The notes under the pieces: model-generated
What the model saw: the letters and a program-made list of their open reading frames with translations, nothing else
The model's database searches: none
Told to the model about the DNA's origin: nothing
NCBI RefSeq assembly: GCF_001748285.1
Contig: NZ_BDGT01000003.1
Coordinates: 62,001 to 126,000 of the forward strand
Length of the DNA: 64,000 bases
Direction of reading: 5' to 3'
Origin: Thermogemmatispora onikobensis
GTDB taxonomy: Bacteria; Chloroflexota; Ktedonobacteria; Ktedonobacterales; Ktedonobacteraceae
Position numbers and translations under genes: made by a program
In this document: positions 35,718 to 53,842 of the stretch, in pieces
Numbering within the stretch: position 1 is the first letter of the stretch
Layout of the letters: each line of letters begins with the position of its first letter

Positions 35718-38700
35718 TCACTGGGTTGTTGGACTATATTCGTAGGCGCCAATATCGCAAGCGCCCTGCTGGGGTCGTTGCAGGCCGCGCTGATCGGTCT
35801 TCACATCGCAGTCGGCGGCGGGAATGCGGTTGATCGCAGGACTACCTGCCAGCAAGGCATGGGTCTGCGTAGGCCCTCCGTTGGCGCGTAGCTGTGGATC
35901 AATGGCAAGCGGTGTTGAGCCTGTATCCACAAGATCAAGATGGTGGCGTTTAGAGGGATCAAGAAAGGTGGCTCCCGCGGCCCGCTGAATGAGGTTATAG
36001 CCCCCGCTCGTCACCTGGCCCACCAGATCGGGATCTTGATCGGCTGTATTAGCGGCCACCAGCGAGTTCAAGAGGGTCACCTGCCTACTGTGTCCGCTCT
36101 CTGTGACGACAGTCAGGCCGCCGCCGGCAGAGGCATGGTTGTCATAGATCGTGCAGAAGTCGAGACGGGCACTGCTCCCGTCGACGAGCAAGCCACCCCC
36201 CAGGCTCCCCCGTTTTCCCTGCGCACTATTCTCGGAAAGTGTGGAATTGACCAGCGAGAGCTTCGTCTCTTGCAGTCCTACCCCAGAAGTTGGGGACAGA
36301 GCTAAGATCCCTCCTCCCTCAGCATCGCTGGCAAGAGACTGGGCCTGGTTATTCGCCACGGTGCTGTCCGTCATCACCAGGTTGCCCATAATAGCGAGGC
36401 CACCGCCGCTGGCAGATCCGGAGGATGTCGTTGAGACAGCGACGTTCTGACTGATGGTGCTGTTGTTGATCACCAGTATCCCCTCGGCAAGCACACCTCC
36501 CCCCACAGCCAGGTCATCCTGAGTGCTGACGCGGTTGCCAGTCACGGTGCTCCCTATAAGGGTGAGCTTTCCACTCGCTCCCCCTGACAAGACGAGACCA
36601 CCCCCAATCGCAAAGTGAGCTTTTACACTGTTGCCTGCGACCAGGGTATTCTTCAGGGTCACCTGGCTTCCCGAGGCCTGCAGCCCCGCACCCGCCCCCT
36701 GCAGGGCTGCGATGATGCTGTTGTTCACCAGTCGCGTGTTAGTGATCTGAACGGTGCTATTGAGGGCAAAAATTCCACCGCCATAGGCATTTTCCAGGCT
36801 GTTGACTTGATTGCCAGAGACCACGCTATCAGTCAGGGTCAGAGTGCCTTTGAGACTCACGATGACCCCTCCCGCGGCATCGTTCCCACCACGACCGGTG
36901 TCATTGACGCTATTATCTGTGATCTGGCTGGCGCTGACGGTCGCCTTCCCCCCATTGTTGAGAATGGCGGCGGCATGGGCAGCCTGCCCACTAGCCTGGA
37001 TATGAGTAATGATGCTCTGCTGTAGCGTCAGTTCCCCTTGCTGGCCATTGTCAATGGCACTGCCTCCAGCCAGATCTGAGTTGCCGGAGTTGCCGCTGTC
37101 ACTGAGCGGCGGGATGGTAATCTGCGCAATGCGGCAGCGCTGTAAGGTTAGCTTCCCCTGATTGAGAAAGAAATCGCCTGGACTCGGCTGTCTCTCGCTG
37201 AAGCTAAGGTCGCTGAAAGTAACGCTGGTCCGAGCCAGAATACGAATGGCATAGCTGGCCTCAAGGCCAGGCTGGCCGCTGATGGTGAGCCTGGCAGCCC
37301 CCGGGCCACGAATCGTGAGGTTTTTACCAATGTCAAGATTGTGCGTGAGAGAGAGAACGCCGGTCAGTCCGGGCTGCACGCTGATGGTCTGGCCAGGCTT
37401 CGCCTCGGCAATGACCTGCCGTAGCGAACCCGGCCCATCATCCTGGAGCGAGGTCACCTGCAAGGGGGCTACCTGTTGATAGAGTAGCCAGCCAGCCGGA
37501 ATGAGGAGCCCCAAAATGAGGAGGACAACCAGCGCCAGCCTGACCAGCGCCAGCGTGCGGGCCCGCTGACTGGCTCGGAGGAAAGCCGCCTCTCGGGCAC
37601 TGACAGGGGTACGTTCCTGCCAGCGCAAAGCCTCCTTGAGCTGCGTGCCCCGATAGAGACGGTCCCGTGGCTTGCCACGCCGCCACCATTCCTGCACATC
37701 AGCACTGACCCTCTGTTGGAGAGGAAGATCTTCTCCAGCCTGACGCACCCAGTCAACCAGTCGCGGCCATTCCTGCAGCAGGGCCTCATGGCTGACCTCT
37801 AACGTCACTTCTCCTGCGCGACGCTCAATCGTCAGCAAGCGTGCCGCTACAAAGGCATCACACGTCTCTTGCATCAGACGGGTCTGCTGCTCGTCTATCA
37901 GGGCAAATTCACTTTGGCGAGCCTGACGACGCAGAGGCGCCTGGCCCTCGCGCCCTGGCTGAATCAAGCGCAGGAAGAGCTGACGCGCCAGGAAGCGATG
38001 CTGATCGCTGGGAAGCGCGGCATAGGTGGCCTCGGCATGGCGTGCCAGGGCCCCGCGTACCCCTCCAATGGCCTCATAGGCACGCCGCGTGAGACGGTTC
38101 CCACGCCGCTGCTGAAAGAGCTGGTCAAGGGTGAATTCAAGCAGAGGCAGAGCGCCTGGCTGCTCGCGAATATCCAGCAGCAAATCAGCTACCAGGTCCT
38201 CATCGAAGACTAGCTGGACGTCGGGCAGCAGAGCTGGCTGCTCGATGACGGCCCGCAGCTCGTCGAGAGTCATGGGGCCTATCGGGCAATGCGCTGGTCC
38301 CTGCAAGAGCTGCGCCAGGGCAGGATAGGCCAAAGGACGATCGTAACAATCGGCTCGCAGGGTGAGGAGGAGGATCAGCTTGCCGTAAGGGACAGAGACC
38401 GCTGCGGCGATCAGCTCAATGAAGCGCCGCCGCTCAGTTTCGGTGACTTCGGGGGCGAATAATTCTTCAAACTGGTCAATCACCAGAACAACGTAGGGAT
38501 GATCAGGGGCCAGGGTCAGGGCCAGACGGTGTAGGGCAGTACTATCTCCCTGGACAAGGGCGGTGTGAATCGCCTCCTTCTCTTGCTGGCTTCCGCCGGC
38601 GGCCAGCACTTCGGCCAGCGCCTCTAATGGCCGATAGGCTGGCCTGAAAACGGCCAGATAGCGCCAGTTTTGACTGCCTGGCAGCGCCCCCGCTTGCAGC

Positions 38701-40253
38701 CGGGGAAGCAGACCGGCCATGAGGAGGCTCGATTTGCCGACCCCAACACCACCGATGAGCGCCAGCAGACGGGCAGCAGAGGACTGAGACGGTTCCCTGC
38801 CCAGCAGAGTAATGAGCCGCGACAGCAGCTCCTGGATAAGCCGTTCACGTCCAAAGAAATCGCCTTGATCGTCTTGGGTAAAGGCCCGCAGTCCTTTGTA
38901 AGGATTGCGCGTCTCTATCCTTTCAATAGAAATTGTCTCTTTTTGCTGACTTTGTCTTCCCCACTGCTCGCCTTCAATCTGGCGAATAATCTCATCCAGA
39001 GCTTGCCGATAGCGGAGGCCGCTCCCATCGCTGAAGAGGGCTGGAGGCACAGCCTCGGCCAGCTGCCAGGTGCTCCCAGTTGAGGGTGCCGCTCCCACGA
39101 GGAGATAGCGTACTGGACGTCGATACAGATGGGCCATTTGCAGAAGCTGCTCGGACACAGGCAGTGTCTGATCCTGAGTGGTAAGTCCCACCAGCAAGAG
39201 CTGAGCCGCTCGCATCGCCTGTCTGAGTGCCAGCTCGCCACCTTGCTCGCAGCTTCGCGCCATGATCACAGTCAGGCCACGCTCGTGCAGCGCTTGCTGC
39301 AGGTGCTGGCTGGCAGGAGATTGCTCGTCCCCAATAGCGAGAATCACGCGCCAGTTGCGCTCACTGTCGACAGGCCGCACAACAGGATATTCCTCGTCTG
39401 GGTGCAAGGTCAGGCTGCGCTCGGTCACCGAATCCGGCAGGGCCTCACTGGCAGCCCTGCCCAGGGCGCGCGCGAAGAGGATGATGGCCGGATAGCGCTC
39501 CTCCACCTTCTTGGCAAGGGCGCGACGAATCACGCGGTCGACTGACTCTGGCAGTGAAGGATCGTGCTTGCGCAGCGGCGGTGGCTCTTGAGAGAGGTGC
39601 TGGCCGATCAGCTCAGGGCCTCGGCCCTGGAAAGGTCGCACACCACATAATAGCTCATAGGCGATGATAGCCAGGGCATACTGATCGCTGGCAAAAGTTG
39701 GTTGACCACGGCATTGCTCGGGGGCCATATAGGGCAATGTGCCAACCAGAGCAGACTCTCCAGCCGGCATGCCATCCTTCCCTAATAGCGGTAGGGCAAT
39801 CCCGAAATCGCTTAAGAGCAGCCCTTCTCTCCCAAGGAGGATATTGGCCGGCTTGACGTCTCGATGGACAATATTGCGATCGTGGGCATATTGCAGAGCA
39901 CCTGCCAGCTGGTAAACATAGCTGACGACTGTAGCAAGAGAGAGATGCGAACCGCGCGGATGCCTGTCGAGGAGGGTCCCCCCCGGCAGATAGTCCATGA
40001 CCAGATAGGGCTGACCACGCTCGATGGCAAACTCATGTACGGGTACAATGTGTTGGTGGCGCAGGCTAGCCAGAATCTGGGCTTCCTTCAAAAAAGCCTG
40101 CTCATCCTCTTCTCTCAGGAGCTGGGTAAGAACCTTGATAGCAACCTGGGTTCTCAAGTAGAGGTGCTCAGCCAGGAAGACTGCCCCATATGATCCGCTG
40201 CCTAGCAGACGTATCAGACGGTAATTGCCAAGTCGCTGGCCCTGGCGTATCAT
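35718..40253 (-). CDS. Ser/Thr kinase - TIR-like - nSTAND1 NTPase - beta-helix membrane protein
   Basis: A 1,511-residue multidomain protein. Residues 12-270 are a eukaryotic-type Ser/Thr kinase with all key residues: G-S-G-S-Y-G (18-23), Lys40, HRD (130-132), DFG (149-151) and APE (177-179). Residues about 300-390 form a TIR-like Rossmann domain (WRVILAIGDEQ through VRYLLVGAAP), without an obvious catalytic Glu. NPYKGLRAF (450-458) and FFGRE (466-470) open an nSTAND1 NTPase with Walker A G-G-V-G-V-G-K-S-S (501-509) and Walker B VLVIDQFEELF (589-599). A membrane helix (about 901-925) leads to an outside domain with the S-L-R-Q-V-I motif, many short beta-helix repeats (G-G-G-x-x-x, N-S-T-x-S-x-N) and a choice-of-anchor end (IDPQLRANGG). 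AGGGAGGAG precedes the start. It resembles a signalling or defence switch; its output is unknown. Confidence 0.9.
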   Translation of the reverse strand: MIRQGQRLGNYRLIRLLGSGSYGAVFLAEHLYLRTQVAIKVLTQLLREEDEQAFLKEAQILASLRHQHIVPVHEFAIERGQPYLVMDYLPGGTLLDRHPRGSHLSLATVVSYVYQLAGALQYAHDRNIVHRDVKPANILLGREGLLLSDFGIALPLLGKDGMPAGESALVGTLPYMAPEQCRGQPTFASDQYALAIIAYELLCGVRPFQGRGPELIGQHLSQEPPPLRKHDPSLPESVDRVIRRALAKKVEERYPAIILFARALGRAASEALPDSVTERSLTLHPDEEYPVVRPVDSERNWRVILAIGDEQSPASQHLQQALHERGLTVIMARSCEQGGELALRQAMRAAQLLLVGLTTQDQTLPVSEQLLQMAHLYRRPVRYLLVGAAPSTGSTWQLAEAVPPALFSDGSGLRYRQALDEIIRQIEGEQWGRQSQQKETISIERIETRNPYKGLRAFTQDDQGDFFGRERLIQELLSRLITLLGREPSQSSAARLLALIGGVGVGKSSLLMAGLLPRLQAGALPGSQNWRYLAVFRPAYRPLEALAEVLAAGGSQQEKEAIHTALVQGDSTALHRLALTLAPDHPYVVLVIDQFEELFAPEVTETERRRFIELIAAAVSVPYGKLILLLTLRADCYDRPLAYPALAQLLQGPAHCPIGPMTLDELRAVIEQPALLPDVQLVFDEDLVADLLLDIREQPGALPLLEFTLDQLFQQRRGNRLTRRAYEAIGGVRGALARHAEATYAALPSDQHRFLARQLFLRLIQPGREGQAPLRRQARQSEFALIDEQQTRLMQETCDAFVAARLLTIERRAGEVTLEVSHEALLQEWPRLVDWVRQAGEDLPLQQRVSADVQEWWRRGKPRDRLYRGTQLKEALRWQERTPVSAREAAFLRASQRARTLALVRLALVVLLILGLLIPAGWLLYQQVAPLQVTSLQDDGPGSLRQVIAEAKPGQTISVQPGLTGVLSLTHNLDIGKNLTIRGPGAARLTISGQPGLEASYAIRILARTSVTFSDLSFSERQPSPGDFFLNQGKLTLQRCRIAQITIPPLSDSGNSGNSDLAGGSAIDNGQQGELTLQQSIITHIQASGQAAHAAAILNNGGKATVSASQITDNSVNDTGRGGNDAAGGVIVSLKGTLTLTDSVVSGNQVNSLENAYGGGIFALNSTVQITNTRLVNNSIIAALQGAGAGLQASGSQVTLKNTLVAGNSVKAHFAIGGGLVLSGGASGKLTLIGSTVTGNRVSTQDDLAVGGGVLAEGILVINNSTISQNVAVSTTSSGSASGGGLAIMGNLVMTDSTVANNQAQSLASDAEGGGILALSPTSGVGLQETKLSLVNSTLSENSAQGKRGSLGGGLLVDGSSARLDFCTIYDNHASAGGGLTVVTESGHSRQVTLLNSLVAANTADQDPDLVGQVTSGGYNLIQRAAGATFLDPSKRHHLDLVDTGSTPLAIDPQLRANGGPTQTHALLAGSPAINRIPAADCDVKTDQRGLQRPQQGACDIGAYEYSPTTQ

Positions 40254-50467: not shown

Positions 50468-53400
50468 TTACAATGTCGCGACCAGCGGCAGCTGAGCCAG
50501 GTCGCCGCGCGCCTGGTACCTTTCCAGCATGCCCTGCGCCTCTTGTAAAAGCACAACCGCTTTCGCGCGCAGAGCAGCCGATCCCGCTTGCAGCGCCGCC
50601 TGAGCCTGGAGGACCTGGATGCGGGCTTGCTCCAGCGGCAGATCCAGCTCTTCAGCCAGCCTGGCAGCCTCGCGGAAATGGCGCTCGGCCTCCTCCCAGG
50701 TCCCACACATTGCCCGATACCAGGCCCATAAAGTCGCAGCTCGCATTGCCAGCAACCGGCGCTGCTGCTGCTGAGCCGTGGCCAGGGCTGTCTCTAGATA
50801 AGGAGCAGCCTCGGCAGGTTGAGCACGTAGCAGCCAGATCTCAGCCAGCCACAGCTGAAGACGTGTGCGCAGATGGTGATAACCATAGTCATCGATGAGC
50901 GCCAGGGCTTCCTCCAGCAGAGCCGTCGCCTCCTCCAGACGCCCTTGACTGCGCGCACAGAGGGCCAGGCCCCCACGATAGCCTGCCTGCCGTTCAAGAT
51001 TGCCCAGCTCTTCAGCCAGCGCCAGCCCTTGACTCAGGACCTCGGTCGCGGCGCGCCACTCCCCCACATAGAGATGCAGCTCCCCCTGCGTACTCGAGAG
51101 ATGAAGCAAGGCTCCCAACAGCTCGTAGGTCTCAGCGATTCTTCGCCCCTCAGCTAAAGCGGCCTTGGCCGCCTCCAGCTCCCCTAGCAGGAGATGATGA
51201 TAGGCAGCATTATTGTAGGAGAGCGCCAGAAAATAATAGTTATGAGTCGCCCGAGCAGCTTCAGCCGCCTCTCCATAGAAACGCAGCGCCTGACGCAGCT
51301 GGCCATATTGAGCCGCAATATTGCCTAACTCAAAGAGAGTCGCGCAGAGGTCGCCCAGATTGCCACACTGACGGAGCGCATACGCCGCCTCTTGGAGATG
51401 AGCCTCGGCGACCACCAGATCGCTGCCCTCCATCGCCAGCGCCGCACCCAGCAGGCGCTGACCAGCGGCAAATAGCGTCTGCCGCTCGTCTTCCCGGGGC
51501 GAATCAGGCACTGCCAACCCGGCTTCAGCGCATGCAATGGCTTCGCGATAATCGTTCATCATCAGGGCCAACTCCCCCAGCTCGAAATAGGCGCTCTTGC
51601 AGGCCGCCCGATCATTCAGCTGGCGGGCCAGCGTCAAGTAGCGCCGGTACCAGTCAGCCGCCTGCTGGAGCTGTCCCAAGGCGCGGTAGACCTGCCCCAG
51701 CGCCATCGTCAGGCGCAGCTCCTCCTCCAGGGCTGCTGCAGGTGCTACCAGGTCGTAGAGCTGTTGTAAGAAGAGAGCCACCTCCGTGCTGACGTTTTCG
51801 CGCGCCAGCTCATCCAGAATCTGCAATCCATAGCGCCGGGCTCGCTCGCTGTCGCCCCCCATCACCGCATGCAGAGCAATTTGCCGCCGCGGAACATCCT
51901 GCTGCAGCGCCGGACATCGCTCCAGCATGGCCGCCAACTCGCGGTGAATCTGCTGCACCCGCACCTGGCTCAGGCGATGCATGACCGCCTCACGCAAGAG
52001 AGCATGCGAGAGACCATAGCAGCCTGAAGCCGTCTCCCTAAGCAAACCACGCCAGAGTAGCTGATCCACGATAGACATGAGAGGCAAATTATGCATTTCT
52101 GGCATCTCTTGCAAAAGAGCCAGCGGCAGGGGTTGATTGGCAATTGCCAGAATTTCCAGCAGCAGGCGGACCTCAGTATCGAGATCGATCAGGCGCCAGA
52201 GCACTAAATCATAGGCGGTCTCTGGGAGCGCATGCATAACTCGCCAGCGCAGCCAGCGCCGCACGTCTAGCCGCCTTTCCCCAGCACTTTCGCTCAGGAC
52301 CCCATCGGCCTGCAGCTGACGCAGCAGCTCCAGCAAGATAAACGGGCTGCCCCCCGAGCGCTCGTATAACCATGCCGGGAAGGTGGAGGCCCCCGGCAAA
52401 GTCACAATGCGCAGAGCTTCCACCAGGGCGGTCACCACCTCCGGAGTCAAAGGCGCCAGCGAGAGCACCTGGACATACCCATGCCGTCGTCCGAGTGTCA
52501 GCAATCGTTGCAAAGCTGGAACCAGCTCAACCGAAGCGCTCGTTCCAATGAGTAGGATAGGAAGCTGGTGAGCACGCAGGGCCAGAAAGCCAAAAAGCTG
52601 GAGCGTCGAGCTATTGGCCCAATGGAGATCGTCGATCGCCAGAAGCAAGGGAGCCGTGCGCGCCAGGGTCCGTAGCGTCTGCCAGAGCGACCACATCAAG
52701 CGACCCTGCTCCTCCGGCAGAGCGCTCCCAAGGGAGGGAGAGGCCGACACCAGCGTCTCAGCGAGAGGATCTAAGCCGAGTCCTTGCAAAGCTTCCCAAA
52801 AAGGGCCGTAAGCCAGCAATTCATCAAACGGCGAACAGGTCCCTCGCAGCATGATCCAATCCACTGAGAGCGATTCGAGCCGCGCCATCAGCTCATCCAA
52901 TAGCCGGGTCTTGCCGCTGCCATCCTCGCCCTGAATCAAGACCGTTGCTCCCTGACCCGTTCTCGCCACCTGCGCAGCCAGCTGCAGTAGATGGTCAAGC
53001 GGCTCCTCTCGCCCAACAAAAGGCAGCATCTGCCCGCCAGGCCCATTGGAGCCAGAGCATCTTCCCCCGGCTCGACCACCGTCACAGGCAGCAGCAGCCC
53101 GGCGGTTTGTCAAAGCCTCTCTCATGCGCTCCTGCAGATCAGCCGGTGGCGAAAGACCGAGTTCCTGCTGCAAAAATCTCTCGTATTGCGTATATTGCAG
53201 CCAGGCCCGCCCGAGAGAGCCACAGCGCAGAGACAACTCAATCAGCCGGCGTTGATCAGCCTCGGAGAAGGGATCTTCGCGAACCAGACGCTGCAGGTAT
53301 TCAATGGCCTCCTCCCAGCGCCCTGCTTGCTCAGCATAAGCTGCCAGGCGGCTCAACGCCGTCAGATAGGCCCGGCTCAGAGCCGCCTCTTCCATCTGCA

Positions 53401-53842
53401 ACCACTCATCGAAGAGCGGGGCTCCATTGAGCGTAAAGCCCTGCAAGAGTCGCCCGCGGTACAGCTGTACTGCCTCCACCAGAGCCTGTCTGCTGCCCTC
53501 CAGCAAGAGCTGCCGGAAACGCCGCACGTCACAGACCAGCAGTGGCTCGGCCAGAGAGACATAAGGGCCATCAACCACCAGCGCCCCGGCCATGCCATAC
53601 GATTGGAGGGTCCGACGAATGACATACAGATTGGAGCGCAGCGAATGGCGGGCATTATCTTCGGGCACCTCGCTCCATAACAAGGCTGCCAGGTGCTCGC
53701 GCGGCTGAGGGCCTTCAGAGGCCGCCAGATAGTAGAGGAGCGCCTGCGCCTTCTGATGATGCAACACCAACGGTAGACCGGCGATACGTACCTCGGGAAC
53801 ACCCAAAAGACGGAACACCAGCCGCTCGGAAGACATGCTCAT
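50468..53842 (-). CDS. BTAD (SARP-type) regulator with AAA ATPase and TPR domains
   Basis: A 1,124-residue large transcription regulator, related in layout to AfsR and the MalT/STAND class. Residues about 1-100 form a winged-helix-like DNA-binding domain (FRLLGVPEVRIAGLPLVL, ALLYYLAASEG). The BTAD dimerisation domain follows (about 100-245, FRQLLLEG through RFLQQELGLSPP). A P-loop ATPase begins with F-V-G-R-E-E, with Walker A G-E-D-G-S-G-K-T-R (305-313) and Walker B LLLAIDDLHWANS near 400. Residues from about 690 to the end are tetratricopeptide-like helices. Such proteins sense nucleotides and small ligands and control nearby genes. The targets here are not evident. No LuxR domain is seen at the end. 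Confidence 0.9.
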   Translation of the reverse strand: MSMSSERLVFRLLGVPEVRIAGLPLVLHHQKAQALLYYLAASEGPQPREHLAALLWSEVPEDNARHSLRSNLYVIRRTLQSYGMAGALVVDGPYVSLAEPLLVCDVRRFRQLLLEGSRQALVEAVQLYRGRLLQGFTLNGAPLFDEWLQMEEAALSRAYLTALSRLAAYAEQAGRWEEAIEYLQRLVREDPFSEADQRRLIELSLRCGSLGRAWLQYTQYERFLQQELGLSPPADLQERMREALTNRRAAAACDGGRAGGRCSGSNGPGGQMLPFVGREEPLDHLLQLAAQVARTGQGATVLIQGEDGSGKTRLLDELMARLESLSVDWIMLRGTCSPFDELLAYGPFWEALQGLGLDPLAETLVSASPSLGSALPEEQGRLMWSLWQTLRTLARTAPLLLAIDDLHWANSSTLQLFGFLALRAHQLPILLIGTSASVELVPALQRLLTLGRRHGYVQVLSLAPLTPEVVTALVEALRIVTLPGASTFPAWLYERSGGSPFILLELLRQLQADGVLSESAGERRLDVRRWLRWRVMHALPETAYDLVLWRLIDLDTEVRLLLEILAIANQPLPLALLQEMPEMHNLPLMSIVDQLLWRGLLRETASGCYGLSHALLREAVMHRLSQVRVQQIHRELAAMLERCPALQQDVPRRQIALHAVMGGDSERARRYGLQILDELARENVSTEVALFLQQLYDLVAPAAALEEELRLTMALGQVYRALGQLQQAADWYRRYLTLARQLNDRAACKSAYFELGELALMMNDYREAIACAEAGLAVPDSPREDERQTLFAAGQRLLGAALAMEGSDLVVAEAHLQEAAYALRQCGNLGDLCATLFELGNIAAQYGQLRQALRFYGEAAEAARATHNYYFLALSYNNAAYHHLLLGELEAAKAALAEGRRIAETYELLGALLHLSSTQGELHLYVGEWRAATEVLSQGLALAEELGNLERQAGYRGGLALCARSQGRLEEATALLEEALALIDDYGYHHLRTRLQLWLAEIWLLRAQPAEAAPYLETALATAQQQQRRLLAMRAATLWAWYRAMCGTWEEAERHFREAARLAEELDLPLEQARIQVLQAQAALQAGSAALRAKAVVLLQEAQGMLERYQARGDLAQLPLVATL

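Follow-up and report, generated by a model that had tools for sequence, protein, structure and literature searches.

The window analysed here is a 64,000-nucleotide stretch of Thermogemmatispora onikobensis DNA (contig NZ_BDGT01000003.1, from a 5.56-Mb genome), and on its minus strand an uninterrupted open reading frame (35718..40253) encodes a protein of 1511 amino acids in which a Ser/Thr protein kinase, a TIR-like domain, an nSTAND1 NTPase, a membrane helix and a beta-helix follow one another. The original prediction regarded this chain as a surface-sensing switch with both phosphorylation and TIR-type output and suggested a role in defence. The locus raises the question of whether such a five-part architecture is real and, if so, which of its domains gives the output and what the receptor serves for.

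Domain architecture of the 1511-residue protein

The five-part architecture is real. The proposed parts and their order were borne out by Pfam, NCBIfam, hydropathy and AlphaFold2, the kinase, nSTAND1 and choice-of-anchor Q domains scoring far over their cut-offs in the profile searches. T. carboxidivorans, T. tikiterensis and T. aurantia each have an orthologue over the full length (L012–L014), and this conservation in three named species rules out a chance architecture; a fourth Thermogemmatispora genome (G040) also matches the protein, and absence in G041 was not counted, since G041 lacks the neighbouring gene as well.

The kinase domain (residues 11–254; 39492..40223, minus strand) is a Ser/Thr protein kinase by its Pfam PF00069 match (E 3.5e-44; 151.6 bits versus a cut-off of 31.7) and is catalytically intact, as had been claimed, with K40, E57, HRD (D132), DFG (D149) and APE (177) all in place. 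The nSTAND1 NTPase with its winged helix (residues 451–863; 37665..38903, minus strand) matches PF20703 with E 1.3e-107 (361 bits versus 27.1) and carries both a Walker A motif (GGVGVGKSS, residues 501–509; 38727..38753, minus strand) and a Walker B motif (VVLVIDQFEELF, residues 588–599; 38457..38492, minus strand), so that its assignment to the nSTAND1 group of STAND proteins holds.

A single hydropathy peak (2.83) marks the predicted membrane helix (residues about 897–926; 37476..37565, minus strand), which is flanked by basic residues on the N-terminal side and, by hydropathy, has one counterpart at the equivalent position in every beta-helix relative; this agrees with the earlier claim of one helix predicted to put the sensor outside the cell. 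Behind it lie a right-handed beta-helix (residues about 931–1450; 35904..37463, minus strand) and a choice-of-anchor Q domain (residues 1455–1506; 35736..35891, minus strand; NCBIfam choice_anch_Q NF041518, E 5.8e-22, 77.7 bits versus 25). The AlphaFold2 model of residues 880–1511 has a mean pLDDT of 80.8 with most rungs above 90, and the C-terminal beta-helix is thus predicted as originally described; together with the NF041518 match these rungs place the protein among the beta-helix/choice-of-anchor Q proteins.

Comparison of the Thermogemmatispora orthologues gave omega values of 0.07–0.15 for kinase and nSTAND1, both of which are judged to be under purifying selection, and of 0.17–0.34 for the middle of the beta-helix. 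Identity to one orthologue (L013) was 92% in nSTAND1, 87% in the kinase, 77% in the TIR-like part and 68% in the beta-helix middle, the latter diverging faster than nSTAND1, as is expected of a recognition surface. In the linker between kinase and TIR-like domain (residues 266–296; window 39366–39458) identity was 81% to L014 but 32% to L013; elsewhere these two are sisters, and the mismatch suggests recombination between species.

The placement of a sensor outside the cell had been considered unusual, and this is doubtful. In the nSTAND1 proteins examined here, as in the window protein, a membrane helix often stands between nSTAND1 and the sensor: a hydrophobic segment was seen behind the winged helix in 15 of 18 other nSTAND1 proteins, a sample biased towards such a segment by a query that held the helix, and one further protein (L082) has the order kinase, nSTAND1, membrane helix, WD40. 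A membrane helix behind nSTAND1 followed by a sensor, usually WD40, looks common, so that the novelty lies in the beta-helix tail and the dead-TIR pattern and not in the outside sensor itself.

Degenerate TIR-like domain

The TIR-like segment (residues 300–432; 38958..39356, minus strand) was not matched directly by the Pfam TIR profiles, TIR and TIR_2 included, in the window protein's own sequence. Its best Pfam match was a B12-binding domain (E 0.0019, under the cut-off), which was read as a shared Rossmann-like fold, and the lone PDB sequence match of its alignment (A1), allantoin racemase with E 0.11, was not credible. Evidence of homology came from relatives and from the predicted fold. 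The corresponding domain of P0002 (brp13) scored E 7.1e-6 and 27.0 bits against TIR_2, just under the curated cut-off of 28, and hhalign of four Thermogemmatispora rows against the domains of seven relatives, four of which have the catalytic glutamate, gave 97.6% and E 3.5e-12. The PDB structures that best matched the predicted fold (mean pLDDT 75.7) were plant TIR domains, with E 2.6e-4 and a modest TM-score of about 0.5, a weak match in itself. On the profile comparison and on its position in relatives, the domain is considered homologous to true TIR domains. The proposed TIR-like Rossmann domain is thereby real but degenerate, its catalytic glutamate being replaced.

In the alignment with glutamate-bearing relatives the catalytic position is occupied by Leu370 (codon 39144..39146, minus strand); leucine fills this column in all four Thermogemmatispora rows and histidine in P0002, and the domain is accordingly read as a pseudo-TIR. 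A TIR enzyme that has lost this glutamate is not expected to have NADase activity. The TIR-type output claimed earlier appears unlikely because the residue is leucine in the window protein and its three aligned orthologues, and the loop ahead of the glutamate position is shortened as well. That the domain would nevertheless act as a NADase or cyclic-nucleotide maker could be argued from its homology to true TIR domains and from Glu368, which lies only two residues off the lost position and through which some residual catalysis is conceivable; against the kept leucine and the shortened loop, however, an active enzyme is very improbable. The kinase is, by these comparisons, the likelier output. 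Inactive enzyme domains have been described in systems related to STAND conflict proteins (PMC7159879).

Relatives and exchange of front ends

The distribution of the core was searched with one query (E-value limits 1e-6, 1e-15 and 1e-12) in about 1,130 genomes of three phyla, namely Chloroflexota and the phyla of L034 (an actinomycete) and L028 (a myxococcal MAG). The order winged helix, membrane helix, beta-helix was matched within the same family only, both among the 47 genomes of the class and among the 400 sampled from the phylum; in these samples, the architecture search proposed for Chloroflexota places the nSTAND1–membrane helix–beta-helix core in Ktedonobacteraceae alone. No beta-helix-tailed nSTAND1 protein was found outside the family in 400 Chloroflexota genomes or in 397 and 331 genomes of the two other phyla, where matches run no further than the membrane helix or its vicinity and the tails that were read are WD40; the family restriction is a statement on the sampled genomes of these three phyla.

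In the unrooted nSTAND1-domain tree a single set of 13 rows with 100/100 support takes in the beta-helix proteins, with mostly unresolved relations inside it; two members of the set are of other kinds, L097 with a WD40-like tail and L076 with a TIR front and an FGE-like tail start. The front ends vary widely. Four Ktedonobacteraceae proteins (L089, L092, L094 and L095), which are uncharacterised, have the same nSTAND1, membrane helix and beta-helix order as the window protein and fall in one set with it (100/100), but start with an intact, glutamate-bearing TIR, as read from their reading frames, whereas the window protein starts with a kinase and a dead TIR. Read by eye, L090 has a helix-turn-helix ahead of a pseudo-TIR and L091 a trypsin-like front end; L096 has a pseudo-TIR alone. 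The inside output module thus appears to be swapped among relatives and the outside sensor design to be kept. A further beta-helix relative, L093:965–3169, is 40% identical and lacks the front half of the protein; it holds the 3' part of the gene alone (residues 797–1507 matched), which would fit either a remnant or a break in the assembly, and it was excluded from the architecture comparison.

Since most other members of the clade have an active-looking TIR and not a kinase, the output at the origin of the clade was probably not the kinase. A kinase-bearing relative, P0002 (brp13, L016:7983–11273), joins a kinase, a pseudo-TIR, a membrane helix and a beta-helix in a single chain and gives no nSTAND1 match; it may be taken as a natural NTPase-less version, in which what has been retained is the link between kinase and beta-helix. 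The kinases of Thermogemmatispora and brp13 grouped in no bootstrap tree, yet a single clade was not rejected (AU p 0.51), so that the kinase may have been captured once or twice.

Loss of the glutamate was compared with fusion of another domain in front. The residue is kept in none of seven TIR-like domains with such a fusion (the window protein, P0002, L090, L123, L126, L127 and L099) and in 6 of 10 without one (Fisher p 0.035, uncorrected for shared ancestry and with a grouping made after seeing the sequences); alignment at this column is uncertain in L086, L050 and L099, and L124 was left out of the count because its front end was not seen. The pattern is a lead, not a result. It allows the tentative and rather doubtful proposal that in ktedonobacterial STAND receptors the TIR effector was demoted to a structural adaptor once a kinase or helix-turn-helix was fused ahead; if true, phosphorylation or gene control would have taken the place of NAD cleavage as the output of one and the same outside sensor and switch.

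Several of these proteins differ from the window protein behind the front end. L123:5989–9222, L126:4262–7651 and L127:1285–2289 from Ktedonobacteraceae have a helix-turn-helix and a pseudo-TIR by eye, and L124:603–3599 of the same group has a pseudo-TIR; in L123, L124 and L126, again by eye, an NTPase, repeats and a LuxR-like end come after the pseudo-TIR. Read in the same way, L099:4463–7720 combines helix-turn-helix, nucleotide-cyclase-like, TIR-like, nSTAND1, membrane helix and WD40 parts in one chain.

Proposed receptor kinase model and genomic context

The reading that we favour, with somewhat better than even confidence, is a single-pass membrane receptor kinase, with the outside beta-helix as sensor, nSTAND1 as the switch that clusters the chains, the kinase as signal output and the pseudo-TIR as packing element or adaptor; its topology, ligand, ATP switch, clustering and kinase output are inferred from the observed domains. 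The beta-helix would bind a ligand outside the cell, which is probably a surface glycan or else the surface of an adjacent cell, and the membrane helix would relay this binding to the winged helix of nSTAND1. The NTPase would then exchange ADP for ATP and the chains would cluster, so that the N-terminal kinases meet and phosphorylate one another and, after that, targets downstream; the degenerate TIR, no longer a NAD-cleaving enzyme, would serve in the cluster as a packing surface or an adaptor. P0002 counts against this reading, since it shows that at least one kinase relative can do without the NTPase.

The beta-helix could alternatively be mainly a scaffold that holds the kinase at the cell wall or on an adjacent cell, the signal then reporting the state of the wall and not a specific ligand. 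The best PDB matches of the beta-helix model are, with low TM-scores, beta-helix polysaccharide lyases and phage tailspikes, and the divergently transcribed neighbour of the gene encodes a GH15 enzyme with starch-binding modules; however, the TM-scores to the lyases are low and no recurring carbohydrate gene was seen by eye in the ORF lists around distant relatives, which makes such a scaffold improbable.

A slightly more plausible, still unlikely, alternative is an immune (conflict) receptor: phage or a competitor would be detected at the surface, and the kinase would be the effector that poisons the cell or arrests its growth. A role in conflict has been predicted for STAND NTPases that carry TIR, kinase or trypsin-like effectors (PMC8195603), and relatives of the window protein bear an intact TIR or a trypsin-like domain at the same position. 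The genomic context argues against it, and against the defence role suggested earlier: the neighbours are metabolic and transport genes with no defence island, and within the genus the gene keeps its syntenic position instead of occurring patchily. The flanking DNA aligns with the three named Thermogemmatispora species across nearly all 20 kb at 82–90% identity, and the adjoining cytidylate-kinase gene is kept in four genomes. PADLOC identified no known anti-phage system, its top 25 matches all lying on the kinase part, and the matches to PD-T4-6 and Mad6 were set aside as generic kinase similarity.

The receptor kinase model has parallels in described proteins. The nSTAND1 conflict proteins (PMC8195603, PMC10907252) have, like the window protein, an nSTAND1 core with an interchangeable effector ahead and a sensor behind; their sensor is WD40 or C-lectin (FGE), unlike the beta-helix found here, and proteins of the WD40 and C-lectin types lie outside the window protein's clade except L097 and L076. 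In Planctomycetota, single-span Ser/Thr kinases with WD40/TPR sensor repeats predicted beyond the membrane (PMC11032199) share with the window protein a cytoplasmic kinase, a single membrane helix and a far-side repeat sensor, but the accessible part of that paper makes no mention of a STAND NTPase or TIR-like domain. In the open-access literature searched, nSTAND1 is named in two papers and the combination of STAND, beta-helix and TIR in none, which is weak evidence of novelty as most subscription journals lie outside it.

With these proteins the beta-helix joins the known STAND sensor types, and one sensor-and-switch core with varied front ends (TIR, kinase, DNA-binding, trypsin-like) forms a natural series, through which the rewiring of STAND receptors between killing and signalling becomes directly testable. 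Elsewhere in the window (50468–53842) a large BTAD-AAA-TPR regulator gene encodes, according to Pfam, a second STAND-like protein.
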